DNA from: Halobacteriales archaeon QS_1_68_20
GTDB taxonomy: Archaea; Halobacteriota; Halobacteria; Halobacteriales; PXRE01
DNA: 64,000 bases
Direction of reading: 5' to 3'
Assembly (NCBI GenBank): GCA_003021085.1
Contig: PXRE01000006.1
Location: 124,001-188,000 of the forward strand
Numbering within the stretch: the stretch's first letter is position 1; every line of letters begins with the position of its first letter. Below are positions 1,681 through 15,459 of the stretch, piece by piece. Under the pieces are notes generated by a model. That model was not told where the DNA came from. It was given only the letters and a program-made list of their open reading frames with translations, and ran no database searches. The position numbers were made by a program, and so were the translations under genes.

Positions 1681-2784
1681 ATGAGAAACGTTGACGATTC
1701 TGCCCCGTCGTCGACCCCACCGGGGACGGATCCGGTGATCCGCGTGGCCGGACTCCGGAAGACGTTCGGCGACGCCGAGTCGGCCGTGACCGCCGTCGAC
1801 GACGTCGCGTTCGAAGTACCCCGGGGGACCGTCGTCGGATTGCTCGGGCCCAACGGTGCCGGCAAGACCACGACGATCAAGTGCTTGCTGGGCCTGGTTC
1901 GTCCGGACGCCGGCACCGTCGAAGTCGCGGAGCAGGACGTCACCGAGCGCCCGAGGCACGCCTACGAACGGATCGGGGCGATGCTGGAAGGCGCCCGGAA
2001 CGTCTACTGGCGGTTGACCGTCCGGGAGAACCTCGCGTTCTTCGCGGGACTGGGCGGGGACGACCCGGCGGACCTGCGGGACCGACACACGGAACTGATC
2101 GAGACGTTCGACCTCGAAGAGTTCGCGGACGCGACGGTCAACGAACTCTCCCGTGGGATGAAACAGAAGGTGTCGCTGGCGACGACCCTCGCCCGCGACG
2201 TCGACGTGGTGTTCATGGACGAACCCACGCTCGGACTGGACGTCGAGACATCGCTGGAACTCCGCTCGACGCTCTCCGAACTGGCCACCGACGAAGACGT
2301 CACGATCCTCCTGTCTAGCCACGACATGGACGTGATCGAGGCCGTCTGCGACAGCGTGATGGTCCTGAACGACGGGTCGGTCGTCGCCCACGACGACGTC
2401 GACTCGCTCCTGGACGTCTTCCGGACCCAGCAGTACGAGGTTACCCTCGAACCCCCCGTCGACGCAGACGTCAGGCGACGACTCGAGCGGACGGTCGGCG
2501 CCGACTGTACCGCGGGCGACGAGCGGGTGACCGTCACGTTCACCGCGACCCGGGGCGACGAGATGTACGACGTCATGGCGGTACTGGCCGAGACCGGCCA
2601 GGACCTCCGGGATGTCGAGTCCGTGGAACCCGACCTCGAAGAGGTGTTCCTCCAGTTGACGGACACGGGCGCGGGCGACGGGGACGACGCACCGACGGAC
2701 GAGGCACCTGACCGCCCCGTGGCTGACGACGAGGAGACCGGCAGTACCTCCAGACAACGACCGGGAGGGACCGAAGATGACTGA
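1681..2784 (+). CDS. ABC transporter ATP-binding protein
   Basis: A 367-residue ABC-2 type ATPase that powers the membrane partner downstream. Visible motifs are Walker A GPNGAGKTT (about 56-64), signature LSRGMKQKV, Walker B VVFMDEP with the catalytic Glu, and the switch His in LLSSHD. About 100 residues follow the ATPase core, ending in an acidic Thr/Asp-rich tail. The stop overlaps the permease start by 8 bp, so the two are co-translated. It faces the lanthipeptide synthetase convergently with only 6 bp between the stops. A role in exporting or resisting the lanthipeptide is plausible but inferred. No C39 leader-peptidase domain is present. Confidence 0.92.
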   Translation: MRNVDDSAPSSTPPGTDPVIRVAGLRKTFGDAESAVTAVDDVAFEVPRGTVVGLLGPNGAGKTTTIKCLLGLVRPDAGTVEVAEQDVTERPRHAYERIGAMLEGARNVYWRLTVRENLAFFAGLGGDDPADLRDRHTELIETFDLEEFADATVNELSRGMKQKVSLATTLARDVDVVFMDEPTLGLDVETSLELRSTLSELATDEDVTILLSSHDMDVIEAVCDSVMVLNDGSVVAHDDVDSLLDVFRTQQYEVTLEPPVDADVRRRLERTVGADCTAGDERVTVTFTATRGDEMYDVMAVLAETGQDLRDVESVEPDLEEVFLQLTDTGAGDGDDAPTDEAPDRPVADDEETGSTSRQRPGGTEDD

Positions 2785-3592
2785 GTCAGGGGCGGCGATC
2801 AGGACGAGTGAGAGCGACGGTCCCTCACTGGTCGCGTTGCTGAAAGTGCTGACGTACAAGCAGGTCATCCTGCTGCTCAGGTATCCGGTCAACACCGCGA
2901 GCCAGTTCGTCGGGCTGGCGGCGCTGTTCGGCATCGTGTTCTTCGGCGGGAAGGCCGTCGCCGGGGCGGCGCTGACGGACTCGCTCGACGGCATCATCGT
3001 CGGGTTCTTCCTCTACTCGCTGTCGATGGTCGCGTATTCGGGGCTGTCGTGGAACGTCACCCGCGAAGCCCAGTGGGGGACGCTGGAGCGACTGTACGTC
3101 TCCCCACACGGCTTCAGGACCGTGATGACCGTCAAGGCGGTCGTGAACGTCTGCATGAGCTTCCTCTGGGGGGCGGCGTTGCTCGTCCTGATGATGGCTG
3201 CCTCGGGCCGGTGGCTGAGCATCGACCCGGTGACCGTCCTCCCGCTGACGGCCATGACGCTGGGGTCCGTACTCGGCATCGGGTTCGTGTTCGCCGGACT
3301 GGCGCTCGTGTACAAGCGGGTCGAGAACGCGTTCCAGCTCGTCCAGTTCGGGTTGATCGGCCTGATCGCCGCACCCGCCGGCAACGTCGAGTGGATGAAG
3401 CTCTTCCCCGTCAGCCACGGCAGTTACCTGACCGGCGTCGCGATGGAGCAGGGCGTCCGGCTCTGGGAGTTCCCGCTGGCGGACCTCGGCCTCCTGGTCC
3501 TGACCACGAGCTTCTACCTTGCGCTGGGGTTCTACGTGTTCCACCGCGCTATCGGCCGGGCCCGCGACGAGGGACTGCTCGGCCACTACTGA
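2777..3592 (+). CDS. ABC-2 type permease
   Basis: A 271-residue integral membrane protein with about six hydrophobic helices. Segments such as FVGLAALFGIVFFGG and LLVLTTSFYLALGFYVFH fit the ABC-2 permease fold. A cytoplasmic start (about 40 residues) precedes the first helix, as is usual. It overlaps the ATPase gene and forms the membrane half of the exporter. The stop lies 6 bp from the stop of lanM on the opposite strand, so the two transcripts converge. The substrate cannot be told from sequence; the lanthipeptide is the obvious candidate by position. Confidence 0.9.
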   Translation: MTESGAAIRTSESDGPSLVALLKVLTYKQVILLLRYPVNTASQFVGLAALFGIVFFGGKAVAGAALTDSLDGIIVGFFLYSLSMVAYSGLSWNVTREAQWGTLERLYVSPHGFRTVMTVKAVVNVCMSFLWGAALLVLMMAASGRWLSIDPVTVLPLTAMTLGSVLGIGFVFAGLALVYKRVENAFQLVQFGLIGLIAAPAGNVEWMKLFPVSHGSYLTGVAMEQGVRLWEFPLADLGLLVLTTSFYLALGFYVFHRAIGRARDEGLLGHY

Positions 3593-3598
3593 CGGCCC

Positions 3599-6500
3599 TC
3601 ACTCCAGCAGGAGGACGCTCGGCAGCGCGTCGGGGTCACGGAGTCGCGACAGCGTGTAGGCCACGCCGGAGACGCCGTCGAAGAACGTCGGATTGACGAA
3701 CTCCGCCCCGTGACCCGGCAGCGAGAGCGCGCCCTCGCCGTCCCGTCGGGCCAGTATCCGGCCCGCGAGTTCGTGGGCGGGGTCGACGTCGCCGCCGGCC
3801 CGCCGGGACGCGACGAGCAACGCCTCCGCCCGGCCGGCGTTTCCACAGCAGAGGTTGTCGAGCGGGTCCGGGTCCGCCCGCGCGGTCGCACGGAGCCGCT
3901 CAGCCGACTCGGCGACCAGCGCGTCGTCCCCGAGTCGGTCGCCGATCTCGATCCGTGCCAGCGACATTCCGGTCCGGCCGTGACACCACCGGTCCTGGTA
4001 CGCCTGCTGGCGTGTCGAGTCCGCCCAGTTGGTCCGCGAGGGGTCGAACAACGTCGCCTCGAACGCCAGCGTCTCCCGGACGGCGTCTTCGTAGCGTCCG
4101 TCGCCGGTGACGTCCGCCAGCCTGGCGAGCGCGTACGCGATGCCGGTCGTCCCGTGGGAGACGCCGGTGACGGGCCGCCCGTGGTCGACGGTGTACCAGA
4201 CCCGGTGGCCGTCGTGATCGACGCGGGCGTCCAGCAACCGCTCGCCACAGGCGACCGCCCGGTCGAGGACGTCCGGGTCCCCGAACCGCTCGTAACAGGC
4301 CAGCAACCCGAGCAACGTCCCGGCCGTTCCCTCCATGACGTCGAAGGTGTCGTCCCCGGCGAGCAAGTCGTCGGTCACCGCCCGACAGGCGTCGGTTGCC
4401 GCCCGCCGGTAGGCGTCCTCGTCGAGCAGGTCCCCGGCGACAGACAGCGTGTAGACGACCGAACCGATCCCTTTCGTTCCGCCGAGACCGACCGAGGCGT
4501 CGCCGTCCGCGGCGTCCACGACCGGTTCGATGGCGGTCTCCAGCGACCGGCGGTAGCGGTCGTCACCCGTTACCTCGTAGAGGGCCGTGGCCGCCAGGGC
4601 GAGGCCGCCCCGCCCCCAGAACAGGGTCGGATCCGCCGGGACGAAGTTGATCGTCCGGGGAGACTTGCAGATGGAGAGCCACTCCGGCCCGTCTGTGGTC
4701 TCGATGCGGGCCTCGAACGCCGTCTCGAAGAGGTCCCCGGCCGCAGCCTGCAGGTCGGCCCCCGTCGACGCCGCTGGCGGGGTAGTCGACGGCGGCGGAT
4801 CGACGACCTGCCTGATCAGCCAGGTCTGCCGCAGCCGGTCGGTCGCGTCCATGGCGTCGAGTCGGTGCCGGACCCGGTCGTACCCGGACTCGTCGACCCC
4901 GACGCCCAGTGACTCCCCGTCGTGGTACAGCGTCCGCTCCCGGGGCGAGGAGGTGAGTCGTGGCACGTCGAACCGGCGGAGCGCACGGCGCTCGGCCTCG
5001 TAGATCCGCCAGAACCGGTCCGGGGCGGCCCCGTCGCCGTCGACCAGCGGCGTGGCGAGGTCCTCGAACTCGACCGACAGCCTGGCCCCGTCCCGGAGCG
5101 GGTTCCTCGCGACGGCCGACCGCCGCAACACCGCGTACTCCATCGTCGACCGGTAGACGAACCGGTTCTGGACGCCCTCGACCAGTTCCGGCGGGGCGAC
5201 GTCTTCGAGGAACTGCCCCGACTCGTGCAACCGGCGGATCTCCCGGTGTGCCCCTTCGAATCCACGGACGAGCGCGTCGACGTGCCCGGCCGGCGGGTGA
5301 ACCTCGCCGTCGACGGACGGCGTGTTGTCCTCGGGACTGACGGTCGCCGCCTCGGGTTCGATCGACATCACGTCCGTGTTGACCGCCTCGACGTCCGGGA
5401 CGAACTGGTTCTCGAGGGCGACCTGCTCGCCGCTCGCGCCGAACCCGGCCATGTACGCCATGCCCCGCTCGTCGGTCTTCCGGGGGTCCCCGACGTCCCA
5501 GGGGAGCAGTCCGGTGAGCAGGACCGACCTGTCGACGACGTGGGTCATCACCGTCCCGTTCGGATCACCGTCCGCGTCCAGCCAGGGGTGAAACAGCGTC
5601 TCGCCGTCGACGATCACCGGGTGCTCGCCGTCGACGATCAGGTTCTCGTGCTGGCAGTCGGTGAACCCCAGGACGTACCCCACACAGAGCGTCGCGCCCG
5701 CCCGCTCGTAGTAGCGGTCTACGGCCGCCTCGTCCGCCGCTTGCTCGAACTCGACGGGTTCCATCCAGCCGTAGCCCTCCCGCGACAGGAACGCCGGCGT
5801 CTCGAACGACGGCGTCGGGAGGTAATCGTTCAACCTGTCGAGGACGGTGTAGAAGGCGATCCCGGCGTCGACCGGCCGGGGTTTGTAGATGGCCTCGCCG
5901 GTCTCGAACGTGACCCGGAACGGGACCCTGCCGTCCGCGTGCGTGTCCGTGCTGAGCGGTTCGAGTTCCGTGACCGGCCCCTCGATTCCGAACCGCGACC
6001 GGAGCGCCGGTCGGTCGGCCTCGATGCGACGGGATACCTCCGTGACGGCTACCATCCAGGAGTCGATCACCTGGGCGAGAAACCGCGACAGCACGGGATA
6101 CTCCAGGCAGACGTTCTCGAACCCGTCGTCGAAGACGGCACCGAGGAACTGTTCGTAGAGTTCCGTCGGCGGATCGTCGAACGCGTCCGGGTCCGCGGTG
6201 GCGAGGTCCGGGTCGAAGTGGTCGACGAAACTCTTGAACTCGACGTACAGCGGTCGGACCGAGACCATCTCCAAGCGGGACACCAGCCAGTCGACTGCCG
6301 GGGGCAGCGCTTCGTCGGGGACGGTCTCCGCAGGGAGTCGGTCCCGCGCGAACTCGGCCACCGCGGCCAGCAGTTCCGCGAAGGGAACCTCCGCTCGGTC
6401 GGTGACGACGTTCGCGTCGTCCGGTCGCCCCGACTGCACGTGCTCGACGAGCGCGTCCACGGTGTCCACCCAGTCCGGCAAGGGTTCGTCGTCGGGCCAC

Positions 6501-6733
6501 CGCGTCGCGGTGACCGCCTCCCTGACGTCGGTCTCGGAGAGTCCTTCGGCGTCCAGTCGTGCCCGGAACGCATCCTCGTCGGGATACAGGTCCCGCCACT
6601 CCTGGAGGAGCTGGCCCGGTGGGATCGAGGGGCCCTCGCCCGGAACGTTGGGTGGTCCCTCGATCCGTTCGAACAGCGTCCGCGCTCGCCCTGCCATCGA
6701 CCGTCGTTGTCGTGGGGTAAGTCCGTCGTCCAT
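3599..6733 (-). CDS. lanM: Class II lanthipeptide synthetase LanM
   Basis: A 1044-residue bifunctional enzyme that dehydrates Ser/Thr in a precursor peptide and then joins the products to Cys as thioethers. The N-terminal dehydratase (about 150-650) shows the lipid-kinase-like motifs IYKPRP (Lys284), TDCQHENLIV (Asp359, His362, Asn364) and IVDGETLFHP (Asp376). The C-terminal LanC-like cyclase (about 690-1044) shows HGTTGIAYAL, WCHGRTG (Cys917) and NLCCGNAG (Cys962-Cys963). The last motif is CCG rather than the usual CHG, giving three Cys zinc ligands as in ProcM-type enzymes. Length is normal for LanM. It lies 172 bp downstream of the precursor gene on the same strand. The dehydratase and cyclase motifs are all present, so it appears intact. 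Confidence 0.95.
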   Translation of the reverse strand: MDDGLTPRQRRSMAGRARTLFERIEGPPNVPGEGPSIPPGQLLQEWRDLYPDEDAFRARLDAEGLSETDVREAVTATRWPDDEPLPDWVDTVDALVEHVQSGRPDDANVVTDRAEVPFAELLAAVAEFARDRLPAETVPDEALPPAVDWLVSRLEMVSVRPLYVEFKSFVDHFDPDLATADPDAFDDPPTELYEQFLGAVFDDGFENVCLEYPVLSRFLAQVIDSWMVAVTEVSRRIEADRPALRSRFGIEGPVTELEPLSTDTHADGRVPFRVTFETGEAIYKPRPVDAGIAFYTVLDRLNDYLPTPSFETPAFLSREGYGWMEPVEFEQAADEAAVDRYYERAGATLCVGYVLGFTDCQHENLIVDGEHPVIVDGETLFHPWLDADGDPNGTVMTHVVDRSVLLTGLLPWDVGDPRKTDERGMAYMAGFGASGEQVALENQFVPDVEAVNTDVMSIEPEAATVSPEDNTPSVDGEVHPPAGHVDALVRGFEGAHREIRRLHESGQFLEDVAPPELVEGVQNRFVYRSTMEYAVLRRSAVARNPLRDGARLSVEFEDLATPLVDGDGAAPDRFWRIYEAERRALRRFDVPRLTSSPRERTLYHDGESLGVGVDESGYDRVRHRLDAMDATDRLRQTWLIRQVVDPPPSTTPPAASTGADLQAAAGDLFETAFEARIETTDGPEWLSICKSPRTINFVPADPTLFWGRGGLALAATALYEVTGDDRYRRSLETAIEPVVDAADGDASVGLGGTKGIGSVVYTLSVAGDLLDEDAYRRAATDACRAVTDDLLAGDDTFDVMEGTAGTLLGLLACYERFGDPDVLDRAVACGERLLDARVDHDGHRVWYTVDHGRPVTGVSHGTTGIAYALARLADVTGDGRYEDAVRETLAFEATLFDPSRTNWADSTRQQAYQDRWCHGRTGMSLARIEIGDRLGDDALVAESAERLRATARADPDPLDNLCCGNAGRAEALLVASRRAGGDVDPAHELAGRILARRDGEGALSLPGHGAEFVNPTFFDGVSGVAYTLSRLRDPDALPSVLLLE

Positions 6734-6905: not shown

Positions 6906-7085
6906 CTAGTAGGTACTCGTCCAGGAGCAGGTCCACGAGCACGTCCAGGAGCAAGGGTCCGCTTCGGCGGTCTGGTCGGTGTCCTCACCGAACGCCGGGA
7001 GGAACTTCGCCAGGTCGAACTCGCTGTCGAACGTGTTCTTTTTCGAACTCTGTGCAGCGGCACGTCCGTCGATCACAACTGACAT
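6906..7085 (-). CDS. lanA: Lanthipeptide precursor with three CSWT units
   Basis: A 59-residue peptide. Residues 1-44 look like a leader: acidic, helical, with a hydrophobic FDLAKFLPAF stretch. The last 15 residues form a core of three tandem Cys-Ser-Trp-Thr units (45-48, 49-52, 53-56) followed by Ser-Thr-Tyr. The core thus has 3 Cys, 4 Ser and 4 Thr. Each repeat is a 12-bp DNA unit. The ATG at 7085 was preferred over the GTG seven codons upstream because an AT-rich promoter lies close behind. No Gly-Gly or Gly-Ala cleavage site is visible; the boundary near Glu-Ala-Asp-Pro is a guess. It sits directly upstream of lanM, the expected partner. Confidence 0.88.
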   Translation of the reverse strand: MSVVIDGRAAAQSSKKNTFDSEFDLAKFLPAFGEDTDQTAEADPCSWTCSWTCSWTSTY

Positions 7086-7119
7086 GCGTTCTCCCTTGGC
7101 GCTCACCTACGTTAACGCT

Positions 7120-7168
7120 TTGGAACTATAATATTTTGAATAAGAAGTTATAATCCACTACTATAATC
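7120..7168 (-). promoter_or_regulatory. Promoter region of lanA
   Basis: About 50 bp of strongly AT-rich sequence lies behind the lanA start. Read on the minus strand it contains GGATTATAAC and AATATTATAG, either of which could be the TATA element. This base composition stands out sharply from the surrounding GC-rich DNA. Confidence 0.55.
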
Positions 7169-7268
7169 GGGGAAATCGACGGGGGAAGCCGCCGGACGGA
7201 CCCTGGAACGACGACGCCACGGATTTCGGCTCCGGGCGGCGGGAATCTCGGGGTACGCGAACCCGGAT

Positions 7269-8138: not shown

Positions 8139-8290
8139 GCCGCCGGTTGGGACTGTAGCGGTTTAGGGGTCTCGCGGAACGGGAACACGTCACCGACAGC
8201 GAGCGGACGGTTGTCTGGAAGACGGGGGCGTCCGAGGGCGAGCGGCCCGCCGAACGGGCCGGCGCGTCGTAGCAGGCCGGCGCGTCGTCG

Positions 8291-8773
8291 TCATCGCGGT
8301 CGGTAGCTCCCGTCTGCGCGCTCCGCGAGGCCCAACAGCACCGCCCACTCCAGCAACCGCCGGACCCGCTCGCGCCAGGTTCGCTGCCACCCCGCCCCCT
8401 TGTGCCGTTCCCACTCCGGGACGTGCTGCTCGAACCGGTCGAACGCCTCCTCGGGCGATAGTCGCCCCTCCGCCGCCAGCGCGTCCAGCACCTCCCGCGC
8501 GCCGAACACGCCCCCGCGGAACGACTCGGCCAGCGTCTCGCGGTCGATCTCGGCCCGGGTGCGGGTGAAGCCGCTGGTGCCCTCCTCCACGAGACCGAGC
8601 GCACGCAGGAACGTCAGCCAGGTCCGGGCCGTATCGCGGCTGTCCAGGTCGAGTCGCTGCTCCAGGCGGGCACAGCAGTCGTCCTCGGTGCCGGGGACCA
8701 GCGGCACCGCACGCTGGGCCCGCTCCACCGTCTCCAGGTCCCCGGGCGGTTCCGGAACGGGCTTGAGTCGCAT
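8291..8773 (-). CDS. Conserved haloarchaeal protein of unknown function
   Basis: A 160-residue soluble protein. Its ATG shares one base with the stop of mch (TGATG), so it is translationally coupled to it. The sequence is rich in Arg and Glu, with two predicted winged-helix-like segments (TARTWLTFLRALGLVEEG and WRERVRRLLEWAVLLGLAE), each ending in the 'LGL' pattern seen before a wing. A DNA- or protein-binding role is possible. No catalytic motif is visible, and I do not recognise the family with confidence. Confidence 0.7.
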   Translation of the reverse strand: MRLKPVPEPPGDLETVERAQRAVPLVPGTEDDCCARLEQRLDLDSRDTARTWLTFLRALGLVEEGTSGFTRTRAEIDRETLAESFRGGVFGAREVLDALAAEGRLSPEEAFDRFEQHVPEWERHKGAGWQRTWRERVRRLLEWAVLLGLAERADGSYRPR

Positions 8774-9702
8774 CACTCGAAGCTCTCCCCGAGGACGTCC
8801 TCGCTGGTGTCGCCCAGGGCGTAGGTCGGCCCGCCGAGCACGTCGACGGTGACCTGCGCCGGCCCCACCAGGTCCTCCGGGAGCGCCTCGAAGTCCCAGT
8901 CGGCGTCCTCGAAGACCTCGACCAGCGGGCGGCCGTACTCCGCGCCGGCGGAGGAGGGCACCTCGTCGAAGCGGTCGAAGTCGGCGGCGACTTGCAGGTG
9001 GACCTGCCCGCCGTAAGCGACCGCGTCGGTCGTCCGGCCGATAGCGGTCGCCTCGTCGTAGCTGACGGGCGCGACCGGGGTGCTCCCCGTCGCGGTGACG
9101 ATCTCGGTCGGGTCATAGCCCAGTTCCGAGAGCCGGAAGACCGCGAGTTCGGCCGCGCGGGCGGCCGCGGTGACGGACCCGGCGACGCTCCCCGTGGCGT
9201 ACGCCAGAAGGAACGTCGCGGAGGGTTCGACGCCGGCCCGTTCGGCGACGTGTTCGGCGACCGTCTCGTCGGGCAGTTCGGTCGACTCGACGGCCAACGC
9301 CGTGAGGTCGAACTCCTCGCGGTAGCCCATCCGGTCGTACTCCTCTTCGACGCCGACCAGCGCCCGTGCGGGGCCCGATCCCAGCCCCTCGAACTCCTCG
9401 ACTGCGAGTTCCCACCCGGCCTTCTGGCTCCCGAGAAGCGCGAGTCCGGGGTGGTCGGTCGTCAGTTCGACGACCGGCCGGGGCGTGCCCGCGACGGTCT
9501 CGGTGCGGGCCTGGAGGGTGGCCAGCCCGGCGGTCTGGATCTCCGCGAGCAGGAGACCGGCCTCGATGCCGCTCTCGACCTCGACGCCGAAGTCGAGGAC
9601 GGTCGCTTCGTCGTCGAGTTCGTGGACGGCCACGTTCAGTTCGTCGGCGAAGTCCAGCGCCTCGTCGACGAGTTCGATGGCCATCCGGTTGAGGCTGTCC
9701 AT
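8773..9702 (-). CDS. mch: Methenyltetrahydromethanopterin cyclohydrolase
   Basis: A 309-residue cytoplasmic enzyme that interconverts the methenyl and formyl forms of a pterin C1 carrier. In halophiles this is thought to use a folate-type carrier rather than methanopterin. Recognisable segments are MDSLNRMAIELVDEALDFAD at the start, GIEAGLLLAEIQTAGLATLQ, LTTDHPGLALLGSQKAGWEL and the conserved VAYGGQVHL near the end. Length is typical. The ATG at 9702 matches the usual Mch N-terminus; the 62 in-frame codons upstream are unlike the family. The downstream gene overlaps it by one base. Confidence 0.92.
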   Translation of the reverse strand: MDSLNRMAIELVDEALDFADELNVAVHELDDEATVLDFGVEVESGIEAGLLLAEIQTAGLATLQARTETVAGTPRPVVELTTDHPGLALLGSQKAGWELAVEEFEGLGSGPARALVGVEEEYDRMGYREEFDLTALAVESTELPDETVAEHVAERAGVEPSATFLLAYATGSVAGSVTAAARAAELAVFRLSELGYDPTEIVTATGSTPVAPVSYDEATAIGRTTDAVAYGGQVHLQVAADFDRFDEVPSSAGAEYGRPLVEVFEDADWDFEALPEDLVGPAQVTVDVLGGPTYALGDTSEDVLGESFE

Positions 9703-9775
9703 ACCCCGGGTTCGGCGGCCCGCGTCAAAGGGCTTGCCAGTCCGGCCGGAGACGGGCGACCGACTGGACGTCGAC

Positions 9776-9808
9776 CATATATGAATATATGTGCATATTC
9801 TCATATAT
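9776..9808 (-). promoter_or_regulatory. AT-rich promoter region of mch
   Basis: About 33 bp made almost only of A and T, containing several TATAT runs, lies 75-105 bp upstream of the mch start. It is the only AT-rich segment in the intergenic tract. On the minus strand it would place the transcription start about 45-75 bp upstream of the ATG. Confidence 0.5.
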
Positions 9809-9997
9809 ACCCGCTCGACCGCCGCAGTGGCGCGCGCTGGCGCGGCCTCCGTGGCGCGCCGGACACGCGCGAGGGACGAGTAACGCAAGGAGCGCTCGCA
9901 GGGCGCGACTGAGTAACGCAGTCGGCTGGGGAGGGGTGTGGCGATTAGTGGTTGGTCCGGGTGGGACTGAACGGGCCTCTCGCGCTGCCCCCGAGTC

Positions 9998-10125
9998 GAG
10001 CGCGCGGGGGCTTTCTGCGTGTTGCTGTCCGAGTTACCGTCGGCAGAGAGCGCGCGGGGGCTTTCTGCGTGTTGCCAGCCACGGACCCGTCCCCAGAGAG
10101 CTCACAAAGGCTTTCGAAACAGTCC
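9998..10125. repeat. Three direct repeats with a 50-bp period
   Basis: Two 28-bp copies starting GAGCGCGCGGGGGCTTTC are identical at 9998-10025 and 10048-10075. A third, degenerate copy starts exactly 50 bp later at 10098 (GAGCTCACAAAGGCTTTC). The spacers are unrelated 22-bp sequences. The even phasing suggests duplicated units of about 50 bp. Confidence 0.75.
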
Positions 10126-10225
10126 GGCCAACGACGTCGGCTACGTTGAACACTGCCAGGACGGACCCGCCAACCGAACGTCTTCGGGACAACGGACTCC
10201 ACCGTACAGGAGCGAGGAAGAACCG

Positions 10226-10459
10226 ATGAGCGAACCGGCCAACGTCGACCGCGAACTGGACGTCCGGACCATCGACGGCGAACCGTTCGGCGACATCGTG
10301 GCCGCGCTCGAGGACCTCGGGGACGGCGAGCGCCTGCGACTGGTCAACAGCTTCGAGTCGGTGCCGCTGTACGACGTCCTCGAGGACCGCGGGTTCACCT
10401 ACGAGTCGACGCAGGTGGCCGACGACGAGTGGCACGTGCTGGTCGAACCCGCGGGATAG
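10226..10459 (+). CDS. DUF2249-domain small protein
   Basis: A 77-residue acidic protein with the pattern of the DUF2249 / SirA-like family: LDVRTIDGEPFGDIVAALEDLGDGERLRLVNSFESVPLYDVLEDRGF. The strand-helix-strand order and the 'LVNSFESVPLYDVL' loop are characteristic. The ATG at 10226 follows a GAGGAAG sequence and begins the compact domain directly. Relatives often lie beside denitrification or respiratory genes; here the neighbour is a damaged membrane-protein gene with a heme-copper-oxidase look. The molecular function is not known. Confidence 0.8.
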   Translation: MSEPANVDRELDVRTIDGEPFGDIVAALEDLGDGERLRLVNSFESVPLYDVLEDRGFTYESTQVADDEWHVLVEPAG

Positions 10460-10480
10460 CCACCATCGGCCCCGGGATTC

Positions 10481-11358
10481 TCAATCGACGTCGCCCTCCG
10501 GGATTGCCCCTTCGTCTGTGCCCGACCCGTCAGCGGAGGCCCCAGTCCCTCCCGACCAGGGCGTGCCGAACACGATAGCCGTCAGCGAGTGGGGGCTGTG
10601 TCGTCGCAACACCGGGACCACGTTGACGAGAAAGAGCACCGCACCCAGGGTGACGAGCAGGCCGGCGAGTGCGCTGACGGTCGGGAGACTGGCCCACTCC
10701 GCGACGACGAGGAACCCGGTCCCGACCAACAGCGTGACGAAGTCCGCGAAGGCGATGTGGTCGTCGTAGCGGTCGTCGATCATGGGGACGGCTTCGAACC
10801 CCAGGCGGTCGGTGTAGCGGTGGATCCAGACGACGAACGGGACGACGTGGTACAGCGTCCCGAGGACGACGAACCCGACCCGCGCCCGGCAGGAGCAGGT
10901 GGGTCGTCCCCGCGGCGCCGAAGCGGGTCGTCCGCGCCAGGGGGTCGGCCAGCCACGCCGGGACGGCCAGGACGGCCCACAGGCCCAGCGCCGCCGCGAC
11001 GACCGCGTACCGGCGGTGCATCGGCGTCCACGCGACCTGCATCTCCCGGAGCCGCCGGGCGAGCACGACGGCGAACCCGGCCAGCGAGGCGGCGACGAGC
11101 AGACCGCCGACCCGGGCGAGGGGCGCGTAGGCGGGTAGCCGCCCCGCGGCGAGCGACGCGACGCCGACGGGGTAGGCGACCTCCTCGAACCACCGGAGCG
11201 GCACGTCGACGCCGTGGAGTTCGGTCTGGGTGAACATGGTCGCGAGCTGGTACAGCGCCCCGAGGACGGTGGTCAGCACCGCGCCGAACACCGCCAGCGT
11301 GGCGTGGACACCGAGTACGTTCGCGCGCGAAGTGGCGGGGAACGGGGTCGAGATTCAC
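10481..11358 (-). pseudogene. Frameshifted polytopic membrane protein
   Basis: Three reading frames must be joined to rebuild one protein. The first (from a GTG at 11358) gives VNLDPVPRHFARE. Near 11320 the frame shifts to NVLGVHATLAVFGAVLTT, and near 10880 it shifts again to VGFVVLGTLYHVVPFVVW, running to the stop at 10481. The second shift is explained by one extra C/G base at 10880. The reconstructed protein has about seven hydrophobic helices and conserved His residues, resembling haloarchaeal oxidase-subunit-I-like membrane proteins. The family assignment is tentative. With two shifts it is either decayed or affected by sequencing errors. Confidence 0.75.
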
Positions 11359-11531
11359 GAGGTCGTCGTGGAGCGGTCGCCCGACGACGGGTAACAGGTT
11401 CCGACCTTCCCCTGACCGTCGCAGTGACGTCTTCCTGGCGCCCGCATCGCTTTCTCGACGGACGCGCCGCTGCGGGCCATTGCGCGTTCACGAAGAAAAC
11501 CGCGAAGAACGGATGTCCCAGAGTCGGGGGT

Positions 11532-11551
11532 TACCCGAACATGTCCCGCAT
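11532..11551 (-). repeat. Left attachment site (attL)
   Basis: On the plus strand the site reads TACCCGAACATGTCCCGCAT. It matches the right site with one mismatch. On the minus strand it encodes MRDMFG followed by a stop, a duplicate of the SecY C-terminus with different wobble bases (GGG TAA here, GGT TAG at secY). The integrase gene begins 45 bp to the right. Confidence 0.85.
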
Positions 11552-11560
11552 GTACCGATA

Positions 11561-11572
11561 GTTAGTACTAAC
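11561..11572. promoter_or_regulatory. Perfect 12-bp palindrome before the integrase
   Basis: GTTAGTACTAAC is its own reverse complement and ends 23 bp before the integrase ATG. The position overlaps where a TATA element or repressor site would sit, so it may be an operator or part of the recombination arm-site region. Confidence 0.55.
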
Positions 11573-11595
11573 ATCTGGGGAACTGACTGGCAGGT

Positions 11596-12915
11596 ATGGT
11601 CGACGTAAACGATGCCAGTGGGATGGGAAAGCAACTCCAGCGCCAGTGGGAGTTGCTCGAGGAGGCCGACATCCCCGACGCCGACCGGGCCGCCATCTCG
11701 GCGTTCGTCACCCACCGCCGGGAGATCGAGGACACCGCCCGGTCGACCCGTCGGACAGACCTGAGCAACCTCCGGTGCGCGAGCGAGCGCGCGGACGTGC
11801 CGCTCACCGAGATGGACCTGGCCGACGTCCGGGACCTGTTCGACACCCTGACGACGTCGCGCGATCAGGGTGGCTACGGCCTCGACCCCTCGGGCAGCGG
11901 CATGTTCGACTACAAGCGCGCGCTCCGCGTGTTCTTCGACTGGCTGGACGGCGACCCCGAGTACGGCGACTACCCGTTCGCCGACCGGATCACCCTCCCC
12001 GACCGCGACGTCCAGGGCGCGGCCACCGAGGACGAGATGCTGACGCCCGAGGAGGTCGAGCGGCTGAAGGACGCCGCGAACCACCCGCGGGATCGCGCGC
12101 TCATCGCCCTCCTGGCCGACGTCTGCCCGCGGGTGACGCTCCTGCTGGGGTTGCGGGTCGGCGACGTCTCCCTGGACGGGGACGAACCGTGGTTCCGACC
12201 GAACCCGAACGTCGAGGACGGCCACAAGGGCGTCGACGACGACCCCATCCCGATCCTCTACTCGCGCGGCGAACTCCGGTCCTGGGTGAACCAGCACCAC
12301 CCCGACCCGCGGGATCACGCGCCGCTGTGGCCGGTCCTGAAGGGGTACGACCGCGAGAACCCCCAGCAGTGCGCGCTCGGTGACGATCGCCTTCGGGACC
12401 TGCTGGCGGAGTGCGCCGACCGCGCCGACCTGGACAAGCCGGCCGAACCCCACCACTTCCGCCGGGTCGCGCTCACCCGGATGTCCAACAGCGACCGCCT
12501 CACCCCGCAGGAGATCACCCACATCGCCGGCTGGGCGAGCCAGCAGATGCTCGAGGTCTACGACTACACCACCGCGGAGGAGCGCAACGCCGCCATCCAC
12601 GAGACCCTGGGGTTCAGCGACGGCAAGTCCGGCGACGGGACCGACCTCGACATGGACCCCGTCGCCTGCCCGAACTGCCGGACGAAGGTCCCCTCGGCGG
12701 CCCACTTCTGCCCGCAGTGCGGCGCCGCCGTCGACGAGGTCGTCAAGTCCGAGGTCGAAGACCGCAAGCGCCGGGCGACCGAGCAGAGCATCACCGCCGA
12801 CGACCCCGACGCGGCCGTCGTCTACCAGAAGCTCGCCGAGCGCCTCGACATGGACCCTGAGTTCGTCCGACAGGCGTTGAGTGACGACGCCGGTCATGCG
12901 GACTCGCCCTCCTGA
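11596..12915 (+). CDS. int: Tyrosine integrase with C-terminal zinc ribbon
   Basis: A 439-residue site-specific recombinase that inserts and excises the provirus. Residues 1-115 form a SAM-like core-binding domain. The catalytic domain (about 145-335) shows the first Arg in LLLGLRVGDV (Arg187), the His-x-x-Arg box in HHFRR (about 286-290), the Gly-Trp of IAGWAS and the nucleophile Tyr in EVYDYTT (Tyr322 or Tyr324). A zinc ribbon CPNC...CPQC (358-375) and a helical tail follow, a common haloarchaeal integrase layout. The start lies 45 bp from attL, as expected. The 3' end overlaps a small minus-strand gene by about 20 bp. Confidence 0.95.
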   Translation: MVDVNDASGMGKQLQRQWELLEEADIPDADRAAISAFVTHRREIEDTARSTRRTDLSNLRCASERADVPLTEMDLADVRDLFDTLTTSRDQGGYGLDPSGSGMFDYKRALRVFFDWLDGDPEYGDYPFADRITLPDRDVQGAATEDEMLTPEEVERLKDAANHPRDRALIALLADVCPRVTLLLGLRVGDVSLDGDEPWFRPNPNVEDGHKGVDDDPIPILYSRGELRSWVNQHHPDPRDHAPLWPVLKGYDRENPQQCALGDDRLRDLLAECADRADLDKPAEPHHFRRVALTRMSNSDRLTPQEITHIAGWASQQMLEVYDYTTAEERNAAIHETLGFSDGKSGDGTDLDMDPVACPNCRTKVPSAAHFCPQCGAAVDEVVKSEVEDRKRRATEQSITADDPDAAVVYQKLAERLDMDPEFVRQALSDDAGHADSPS

Positions 12916-13070
12916 GCGTCGAGGTCGGCCAACCAGGCGTCGATCGTCTCCCGCAGCTTCTCGTCGTCGGTCTGGTCACGAACCTGTTCGACGAGGTCGC
13001 GGTGCTCGCTTGCGAACTCGTCCGGGTCTTGCTCGAGCGCGTTTCGAATGTGGTCGGTAGTGGCGTTCAC
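12894..13070 (-). CDS. Small acidic protein, unknown function
   Basis: A 58-residue protein with a GTG start overlapping the stop of the upstream gene (GTGA). It is strongly acidic and helical (NALEQDPDEFASEHRDLVEQV). No family is recognised. It is last in the minus-strand accessory operon, and its 3' end overlaps the integrase 3' end tail to tail. Confidence 0.65.
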   Translation of the reverse strand: MNATTDHIRNALEQDPDEFASEHRDLVEQVRDQTDDEKLRETIDAWLADLDAQEGESA

Positions 13071-13804
13071 GATGATTCCCCCCTGTGGTCGAGCATGGCG
13101 AGGTCGCGATCCAGTTCTTCAAGCGTCTCCGAGTCGTGGTCGGCGGTGAGGACGGCCGCGCCATCTCCAGTGTCGAACAGCCAGACGCCGTCGCCCTCCT
13201 CCAGCAACGACAGGTCGACGCCGTGCTGGTCGGCGCGGTAGCTGGCCTCGATCTCGACCTCCTCGTCGAGCGCCTGGTCCGGGTCGTCGTCGGCGACCTC
13301 GCTGCCCTGGTCGTTCTCGCTGACCTCGTCGACGTCGTCGGCCTCGTCGTGGACCCGGCCCTCGTGGATGGCGAGGCCGCGTTCGCTGTCGAACTCGTCG
13401 CCGCACGTCTCGCAGGCGTGCGTCTCGGCCTCGTCGTCCTCCGGCGCGTCCTCGGCGTGACCGTCGCCGGCCTCGCTGGACCCTCGCGCACGCTGCTCGC
13501 GCGTGCCCTCGTCCTGGACCAGCAGGGGACCGGCGTCCACCTCGTAACCGCGGTCGCGAACGTGTTCCACGGCGGCCGCGAATCCCCACAGCGACGTGTA
13601 GTGCAGGAACCGCCCGTTGTGCGGGCCGAACTTGTCGACCTCGAGGCGGCCGTCGTCGGTGGTCGACGCGTCGAAGGCGTACGACCGCGCGCTGGCGTCC
13701 TCGCCTTCGGGGTCGACACGGACGGCCACCGACACCGCCTCGATCTCGCCGGCGTCGCTGCGGGACTCCTCGTAGCTGGTGATCGCCGTCGTGACGTCGG
13801 CCAT
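13067..13804 (-). CDS. C2H2 zinc-finger protein, provirus accessory
   Basis: A 245-residue acidic protein. The N-terminal part (MADVTTAITSYEESRSDAGE) is unassigned. A classic C2H2 finger lies near the middle: HACETCGDEFDSERGLAIHEGRVH, with Cys-x2-Cys and His-x4-His. A very acidic linker and a C-terminal domain (DLSLLEEGDGVWLFDTGDGAAVLTADHD) follow. The ATG overlaps the upstream stop (ATGA). A regulatory role is inferred from the finger. It belongs to an operon of overlapping small genes running from about 19,114 down to 12,894. Confidence 0.75.
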   Translation of the reverse strand: MADVTTAITSYEESRSDAGEIEAVSVAVRVDPEGEDASARSYAFDASTTDDGRLEVDKFGPHNGRFLHYTSLWGFAAAVEHVRDRGYEVDAGPLLVQDEGTREQRARGSSEAGDGHAEDAPEDDEAETHACETCGDEFDSERGLAIHEGRVHDEADDVDEVSENDQGSEVADDDPDQALDEEVEIEASYRADQHGVDLSLLEEGDGVWLFDTGDGAAVLTADHDSETLEELDRDLAMLDHRGESS

Positions 13805-14271
13805 CAGGCACCCACCCCCCAGGCGATGAGCACCGCGACTGCCAGCAGGACGATGCAAGCGGCCCCGAACAACAGCGGGCCCACCGGGACGCGGGCGCGA
13901 TTTGCTTTCAGGGTCGTTTGGTTCGTCGGTCGCTCCCTCCCGACGTACTCGAACTCGACGACCGTCACGACCTTCTCGGGGTCCCAGGCACCTTCGCCGT
14001 ACACTCGCTCGTAGCCCTCGCGGAAGTCCTCGAGATCTTCGTAGTCGCCCTCCTTCTGGGCGTCCTCGTCGGTCATTTCCCCGAGCGACTCCTCGTACGT
14101 ATCGAGTACGCGGATGTAGCAGTCCGCCTCTTCGTCGGACGTGAACAACGCCGTCGTCGCCGCGACGACAGTCCCCACGTTCGGCCCGGAGTAGTTCTCG
14201 TCCCACTCCCGGCGCGTCACGGTCTTGCTCCCGCTTCGGATCAGCGGGATGTGGTATTCTTTAAATAGCAT
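13804..14271 (-). CDS. ASCH-like domain protein with a C-terminal helix
   Basis: A 155-residue protein. It begins MLFKEYHIPLIRSGSKTVTRREW, which has the ASCH signature of a basic loop after 'G-x-K-T-x-T-R-R'; ASCH domains bind RNA or modified nucleotides. The C-terminus is a single transmembrane segment (VGPLLFGAACIVLLAVAVLIAW), so the protein may be membrane-tethered with the ASCH domain inside. The ATG at 14271 was chosen because the motif starts there; upstream in-frame residues are unlike the family. The start overlaps the previous gene by 11 bp. The pairing of ASCH with a membrane anchor is unusual. Confidence 0.75.
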   Translation of the reverse strand: MLFKEYHIPLIRSGSKTVTRREWDENYSGPNVGTVVAATTALFTSDEEADCYIRVLDTYEESLGEMTDEDAQKEGDYEDLEDFREGYERVYGEGAWDPEKVVTVVEFEYVGRERPTNQTTLKANRARVPVGPLLFGAACIVLLAVAVLIAWGVGA

Positions 14272-14644
14272 CCTCTGACCCCTCCAGTTGAGCAACGTCC
14301 ATCCCACCGTCGGCGATGTAGACGTCGCCGTGTTCGTCCCGCTCGATGGTCGCCCGCCGGTCGACGCTCGCCTCGGCCAGCGTGTCCAGCGCGTCGGTCA
14401 GGCGGTCGGTGTCGCCGTCCGGGCAGTAGACCGCGCCGTGCTGGTGGCGGATCCGCAGCGTGTCAGGTTCGAGGAGTTGGTCGGCGGCGCCGCCACCAAC
14501 CCCGATGAGGCGGACGTGGCCCGTCTCGACTGGGTGGACCGTCCACTCCTCGACGCCCTCGGTGGAGCGGACCCGGATGCCGTCGATCTGCTCCCGGGCG
14601 TCGACGACCGCGGGGTCGACCTCGCCCGTCCCTTCACCGGGCAT
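14261..14644 (-). CDS. Hypothetical provirus protein
   Basis: A 127-residue acidic protein with several beta-strand-rich segments (IRVRSTEGVEEWTVHPVETGHVRLIG). No motif is recognised. It starts 11 bp inside the upstream zinc-ribbon gene and ends 11 bp inside the ASCH gene, so it is part of the coupled operon. Confidence 0.65.
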   Translation of the reverse strand: MPGEGTGEVDPAVVDAREQIDGIRVRSTEGVEEWTVHPVETGHVRLIGVGGGAADQLLEPDTLRIRHQHGAVYCPDGDTDRLTDALDTLAEASVDRRATIERDEHGDVYIADGGMDVAQLEGSEDAI

Positions 14645-14903
14645 GGCCCACCTCCTCGGGCGAGACGGGGTCGTCGAAGTGGTTCTTGCAGCAGTCGCAG
14701 AAGTAGTCCCCGTCGTACTCCCGCTTGTTCGGCCCGCCATGGACCTGCGTTTTGACGGAGATGTTGTACGATCCACAGTGGGGGCAGCGCTCGCGTTCCT
14801 CGGCCGGCGTGGAACTCGGCGCGCGACGGGCCGCGTCGAGGTCGAAGTCGTCCGGGATGCCGGGCGCGACGGGACGCTCTCCGTTACTCGCCACCGTCCT
14901 CAC
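14634..14903 (-). CDS. Zinc-ribbon protein
   Basis: An 89-residue protein with two Cys pairs: CPHCGSYNISVK and, about 25 residues later, CDCCKNHF, a treble-clef or ribbon type zinc site. The GTG at 14903 is the annotated start; the GTG at 14894 is also possible. It overlaps both neighbours. Small zinc ribbons of this type are very common in haloarchaeal viruses; nucleic-acid or protein contact is the usual guess. Confidence 0.65.
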   Translation of the reverse strand: MRTVASNGERPVAPGIPDDFDLDAARRAPSSTPAEERERCPHCGSYNISVKTQVHGGPNKREYDGDYFCDCCKNHFDDPVSPEEVGHAR

Positions 14904-15459
14904 CTCCTTCCAGCGTGGCCGCCTCAGCGAGTTCGGCGGCCTCGTCGATCAGGTTCTGGTCGAAGCCTGCGATACCTGCCTCCCTGGCGATGTCCGCCGG
15001 GGCCAGATCGCCGCTTGTCCGCATCGACGCCTGGAACAGCCGGTCGAACACGTCCCGGGCGACCATGCGGTAGACGCGGTCGACGCCGTCGACGTTCTCG
15101 TACTCCGGGCGGCCCAGCCGCGACGAGGGGAAGTCGTAGGACTTCGTCGGCTTGCTGTCCACGCTGGCGACGTAGACGCAGGTGTAGACGGGGTCGGCCG
15201 GGCGAGCGCGGAGGCGACCGTTGCCGGTGTTGCCCAACAGGTCGTAGTCGTTGCGCTCGCTCCAGGCGTCGGCGCGGTCCGCGGCCTTCCCGACGACGAC
15301 CATGTTCCGGCCGTTCGCCAGGTCGACCACCGGATCGCCGATCTTGAAGTCGTCCGCCAGCGGGTCGACCGGTTCGGGAGCGGCCTCGATGGTGGTCCGG
15401 CGCGCATCGTCCTGGGCGCCGTGGTCCTCGAAGTCACCGAGGTCACCGTCACTCGCCAT
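14884..15459 (-). CDS. Hypothetical provirus protein
   Basis: A 191-residue protein. The ATG at 15459 was chosen because upstream in-frame sequence is Thr/Arg-rich and typical of a shadow frame. A central region, DFKIGDPVVDLANGRNMVVVGKAADRADAWSERNDY, has the look of a small beta-barrel (KOW/SH3-like) domain, and the C-terminal part is acidic and helical. Similar barrels recur in haloviral accessory genes. Function is unknown. Confidence 0.7.
   Translation of the reverse strand: MASDGDLGDFEDHGAQDDARRTTIEAAPEPVDPLADDFKIGDPVVDLANGRNMVVVGKAADRADAWSERNDYDLLGNTGNGRLRARPADPVYTCVYVASVDSKPTKSYDFPSSRLGRPEYENVDGVDRVYRMVARDVFDRLFQASMRTSGDLAPADIAREAGIAGFDQNLIDEAAELAEAATLEGGEDGGE

Follow-up and report, generated by a model that had tools for sequence, protein, structure and literature searches.

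A putative class II lanthipeptide precursor with three identical CSWT units in a haloarchaeal genome

The window, that is, the whole stretch of 64,000 nucleotides analysed here, is part of one contig (C6) of a haloarchaeal genome (G000; 3.39 Mb, 40 contigs, 81.5% complete). It carries a 59-residue open reading frame (ORF), MSVVIDGRAAAQSSKKNTFDSEFDLAKFLPAFGEDTDQTAEADPCSWTCSWTCSWTSTY, which runs from 7085 to 6906 on the minus strand with an ATG start and ends in CSWT CSWT CSWT STY. The sequence evidence supports this ORF as a haloarchaeal precursor of a class II lanthipeptide, adjoining its LanM synthetase, and the product is likely to contain three consecutive rings, each joining a Cys to the Thr three residues downstream with Ser and Trp inside. 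What appears to be new is the group of tandem Cxx(S/T) cores, and within it a core with three identical units; the kind of compound is itself known.

The precursor, its leader and its synthetase

The features of the cluster are as follows:
1681-2784, plus strand: ABC transporter ATP-binding protein, DrrA-like (PF00005, 105 bits; transporter clade)
2777-3592, plus strand: ABC-2 type permease partner (PF12698), a few nucleotides from the LanM stop, tail to tail
3599-6733, minus strand: class II synthetase LanM, 1044 residues, DUF4135 dehydratase and LanC-like cyclase, CCG-type zinc motif (Pfam, NCBIfam, LicM2 alignment)
6906-7085, minus strand: LanA precursor, 59 residues, leader MSVxID plus KxxFDxEF (archaeal LanA motif), core CSWT three times plus STY (leader-profile match)
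6918-6953, minus strand: three 12-bp units encoding CSWT (TRF and codons)
7086-7200, minus strand: AT-rich stretch upstream of the precursor, with TATA-like motifs and with AGGGAG immediately ahead of the ATG (sequence and composition)

The precursor lies upstream of LanM on the same strand, with a gap of 172 nt. Its leader, MSVVID...KKNTFDSEFD, matches precursors of other haloarchaea, including the published archalan-alpha precursor, and its KNTFDSEF has one additional residue between K and F when compared with the archaeal LanA motif Kx(Y/F)(D/E)xx(F/Y) (Castro et al., as relayed in PMC10105419). A leader profile of 16 relatives, from which the window sequence was excluded, was searched against the 620 ORFs of the window and picked this precursor only (29.9 bits, E=1.5e-8; next 0.66). 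The profile found no second precursor for the window LanM among these ORFs. The identification of an archaeal lanthipeptide precursor in the earlier note on this DNA is borne out by the leader match and by the adjacent full-length LanM: as in class II lanthipeptides, a short precursor, made up of a leader and a core that contains Cys and Ser/Thr, neighbours a fused DUF4135 dehydratase and LanC-like cyclase. Further precursors with the window-type leader and unrelated cores are present in the source genome. The stretch at 7086-7200 is, judged by its composition, a probable archaeal promoter and ribosome-binding site; a sigma-70/terminator scan, a method unsuited to archaea, found nothing.

The window LanM is intact, matches PF13575 (289.7 bits) and PF05147 (178.8 bits), and scores 619.1 bits with TIGR03897 against a cut-off of 304. 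It is of the CCG (ProcM-like) type, with LCCGN where LicM2 has LCHGL (6ST5 alignment); most of its relatives have the same zinc motif, which is associated with broad substrate tolerance (PMC10027976). At position 361 it has Gln (DCQHEN) where the D-x-H-x-x-N stretch of LicM2 has His (DFHNEN), and Gln is the majority residue at this site in the alignment of the archaeal LanM set. Matches were found in 47 of 394 haloarchaeal genomes, with full-length relatives of up to 57% identity; the nearest LanM is that of genome G328 (56-57%), and LanMs adjoining archalan-alpha or tandem-Cxx(S/T) precursors are 54-57% identical. In the LanM tree the window enzyme sits in an unresolved fork, not specifically with the LanMs of other tandem-Cxx(S/T) clusters, and LanM phylogeny was rejected as a predictor of core type on account of this placement.

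The source genome is rich in such genes. With 11 DUF4135 and 11 LANC_like matches it has at least 11 LanM genes, on C6, C7, C11, C15, C28, C33, C37, C39 and C19 (L009-L018, L022). At least this many can thus be present in a single haloarchaeal genome, compared with six clusters in H. salinus, the prolific producer known from the literature. The other LanMs are about 30-55% identical to that of the window; on C11, C15 and C33 the dehydratase and the cyclase are separate ORFs, and C39 has the dehydratase part only. On C7 (L017, about 8265-15114), two tandem LanM genes stand beside three closely similar precursors, for example ACLYDSAVCDTQTSNP; in one of the three, codon 2 is a stop. In another genome (G163; L070, 1377-3654), six related precursors form an array with another leader type, TSFGMxY...FDERFE, and Cys-rich cores such as CTDSCLCSGDCNGCSCGC; similar precursors occur in L068.

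Tandem cores and the transporter clade

Translation of the ORF confirmed the triple CSWT followed by STY that had been noticed earlier, and the core of 15 residues holds eight Ser/Thr, so that the proposed maximum of eight water losses is the right count. TRF reports a single array at 6918-6953 (period 12, 3.0 copies, 83% matches); copies 1 and 3 are identical (TGCTCCTGGACG), and copy 2 has two synonymous third-position differences. At the protein level the tandem is clean, and a perfect three-by-four repeat arises in 1.5e-5 of shuffles of the precursor's own core. The suggested search of genomes for the CSWT repeat was carried out with the two-copy DNA pattern, which occurs in one of 394 haloarchaeal genomes, namely the source genome alone.

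This repetition is not unique in kind, because tandem Cxx(S/T) units are also found in G328 and in Haloarcula argentinensis (DSM 12282). Beside the nearest LanM, G328 has four precursors with the cores CIITCLIT, CLLTCTVSCAVT, CLITCGVFTCTIT and CWFSCGLSCGLT. In H. argentinensis, which is reported to be sensitive to archalan alpha (PMC10105419), a CWVLTCGIT core adjoins LanM, and the cores CHTTCAQTCVWTSVF, CVATCGASCVATACGISCAVT and CNMSCGPTCLIT are near a transporter 10-15 kb from it. There (L144, 6035-10509) the three precursors surround the transporter in a 19-kb stretch without a LanM, and the LanM 10-15 kb away presumably acts on them. A further core, CAWSCASSTLC, comes from G407 (Halorussus-like family f7). 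The eight precursors from G328 and H. argentinensis, which are all the leader-family precursors found in these two genomes with a search profile that partly included core columns, all have Cxx(S/T)-rich cores of up to five units. As the cores of G328, H. argentinensis and G407 all carry such units, sequence comparison indicates that the family is laid out in contiguous Cxx(S/T) units. The window precursor, whose core closes with more than the two contiguous units required for the tandem group, is the member whose units are all identical.

The earlier note also took the 12-bp repeats as a sign that the core grows or shrinks by slippage. In a simulation with local codon usage, 24% of 100,000 encodings were at least as similar as observed (P=0.24). 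Codon bias alone thus explains the similarity, the DNA repeat adds no evidence of recent duplication, and slippage inferred from the DNA was rejected; recent duplication of the CSWT units may have taken place and would be compatible with the DNA. Cores in the group do change length over evolutionary time, as relatives carry two to five units and a precursor of Natrinema gari (L131/L064) has a 27-bp duplication inside its core, giving CNTASKHLP-CNTASKHLP (23 of 27 nt the same), of a segment that is single copy in its Haloferax and Haloarcula relatives.

The ABC transporter at 1681-3592, absent from the earlier finding, is part of the cluster. The best NCBIfam match of its ATPase is drrA, under the cut-off of that model. 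This ATPase is 72% identical to the ATPase of the G328 cluster and 63% identical to each of two others, one beside the tandem cores of H. argentinensis and one beside an archalan-alpha core in genome G028, compared with 49-54% for ATPases adjoining other core types; the permease is 66% and 63% identical to permeases adjoining tandem-Cxx(S/T) precursors. In a tree of 10 ATPase sequences, the window, G328, H. argentinensis and G028 form one clade (100/100), a grouping that is absent from the LanM tree. No such transporter was found near the archalan-alpha clusters of G173, G377 and G409. A role in export or self-immunity is probable, and because the transporter clade tracks core type in these 10 sequences, a small set, the comparison points to a transporter that recognises the completed ring unit, like an exporter or self-protection pump. 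The genes beyond the cluster (a metallo-beta-lactamase-fold protein and MCH cyclohydrolase) look ordinary. A tyrosine recombinase with a C-terminal zinc ribbon at 11596-12915 is followed by many small ORFs; this is possibly the end of an integrated element, and no tRNA was found near it.

Predicted rings and competing readings

In the eight G328 and H. argentinensis precursors, Ser/Thr stands at Cys+3 for 22 of 25 Cys, a count reached in 0 of 20000 shuffles, against 2 of 25 at Cys+1 and 1 of 25 at Cys-3. In seven of the eight precursors a Ser/Thr stands at +3 from the first Cys of the array, and one is rarely present upstream of it. In archalan alpha, NMR has proven a methyllanthionine that joins Cys2 to Thr5 in GCGFT, with Cys on the N-terminal side, and there is a second ring of i+4 spacing, Cys6-Ser10 (PMC10105419); other archaeal products differ in ring spacing and direction (PMC12144867), and ring size is therefore not fixed in the family. 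The relatives' preference for +3 over +1, together with the Cys2-Thr5 ring, makes Cys-Thr(+3) rings likely in the window product.

The best explanation as a whole, a modified three-ring product that is cleaved, exported and active as an antagonist or motility signal, is one that we consider probable. The CCG-type LanM would bind the precursor through its leader and dehydrate the Thr of each unit, and each Cys would add to the dehydrobutyrine three residues downstream. The outcome would be a row of three four-residue methyllanthionine rings (Cys-Ser-Trp-Dhb) that succeed one another without overlap, with Ser-Thr-Tyr after the last; in precursor numbering the rings are predicted as Cys45-Thr48, Cys49-Thr52 and Cys53-Thr56. 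The leader would be cleaved near AEAD/P, and the transporter at 1681-3592 would export the product and/or protect the producer. The peptide would then act on other haloarchaea, most likely as an antagonist like archalan alpha; a role in motility signalling is possible. For CSWTCSWTCSWTSTY with three methyllanthionine rings the calculated M is 1746.6265 ([M+2H]2+ 874.3205), or 1843.6793 with N-terminal Pro and 1958.7062 with Asp-Pro. The wider proposal, that three identical, evenly spaced Cys-Thr(+3) rings belong to an unreported haloarchaeal family that gains and loses units (two to five) and whose transporter clade follows unit type, seems to us evenly balanced.

The same lanthipeptide could instead close two rings from Ser to the next Cys, which would leave the first Cys free or in oxidised form and the Thr residues either unchanged or as Dhb; such Ser-Trp-Thr-Cys rings were those favoured in the earlier note. 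Ser46 and Ser50 are indeed three residues ahead of Cys49 and Cys53, and bacterial lanthipeptides usually have rings in which Ser/Thr precedes Cys, which speaks for this reading. So does ciblan, with its Ser2-Cys6 ring (PMC12144867). However, relatives keep Ser/Thr at Cys+3, and the low counts at Cys+1 and Cys-3 mean that a Cys+1 partner is not conserved; moreover, the first Cys would be left without a close N-terminal partner, and we regard these rings as quite unlikely. The same precursor could also give rings that are intertwined or long-range, or be cut later within its rings like the DADC (diamino-dicarboxylic) products larlan and medlan, outcomes with real precedent: archalan beta is intertwined (PMC10105419), the DADC products are proven (PMC12144867), and the larlan LanM is from the same clade as that of the window. 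But the Cys-rich halves of larlan are separated by a longer loop (STCTY...CPTCDF), whereas the window units are contiguous and equal like those of the tandem-Cxx(S/T) relatives, and this outcome is unlikely.

It is also conceivable that the ORF is decayed or silent, or that the real substrate of the window LanM is another precursor elsewhere. The source genome, with its many LanM genes, has several leader-family precursors, and the stop at codon 2 in the C7 precursor means that precursor decay occurs there. The window ORF, however, has an intact leader and its own AT-rich upstream stretch, and as the sole leader-family ORF in the window it has an intact LanM immediately downstream, which makes this reading very improbable. 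There is, finally, the view that antisense or non-coding repeats happen by chance to read as CSWT units. CSWT-type DNA patterns do arise by chance in 36 unrelated phage contigs of IMG/VR, 0 of 36 encoding a precursor-like protein, but the leader homology, the adjoining LanM and the conserved Cxx(S/T) layout of relatives refute it and leave it a negligible chance. A viral origin was likewise rejected, as a scan of viral contigs found no LanM relative and the 36 pattern matches are unrelated frames.

If the three Cys-Thr(+3) rings form as predicted, the product would be a lanthipeptide with repeating ring units, and the group would offer a natural series (two to five units, varied side chains) for studying LanM ring direction and spacing and activity against ring number. 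The core-type-tracking transporter clade would be a handle on export and self-protection of archaeal lanthipeptides, a little known field.

Comparison with known systems

Haloarchaeal class II lanthipeptides, their LanMs, anti-haloarchaeal action and motility effects have already been published (PMC10105419, PMC12144867). The claim of an undescribed natural product holds to the extent that neither the window core nor the relatives' tandem cores that were looked for are printed in the papers searched, where tandem equal Cxx(S/T) rings are not among the characterised products described; supplementary precursor tables may list them, and the class of compound is known.

Archalan alpha of Halorussus salinus (PMC10105419) has the leader family MSVxID...K(E)xYDxEF in common with the window and a LanM about 55% identical, as is the LanM in G173 beside an exact archalan-alpha core, GCGFTCSPFSSW; the G028 archalan-alpha cluster has the same transporter clade. 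Both cores contain a Cys-x-x-Thr unit directly followed by Cys, but archalan alpha has one CxxT unit and the Cys6-Ser10 ring, whereas the window has three CSWT units and an STY tail. The window precursor thus shares the CxxT unit only and falls outside the GCGFTC-type subfamily with one CxxT and one Cx3S ring. Larlan, whose precursor was found beside the LanM relative of Haloferax larsenii JCM 13917, has the broad LanM clade and leader type of the window, while larlan and medlan are two antiparallel chains from a looped core cut inside its rings (PMC12144867), unlike the product predicted here. The prochlorosin enzyme ProcM has a CCG cyclase zinc motif like that of the window LanM, and prochlorosins combine one leader type with very varied cores; they are cyanobacterial, however, and one enzyme serves many unlinked precursors, whereas haloarchaeal LanMs tend to have their own adjacent precursor. 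The precursors of H. argentinensis and G328 have the leader family, transporter clade and two to five consecutive Cxx(S/T) units seen in the window, and CVWTSVF of H. argentinensis closely parallels CSWTSTY. Their units are unlike one another whereas the three of the window are identical, and the window cluster has one precursor gene compared with four in each of them.
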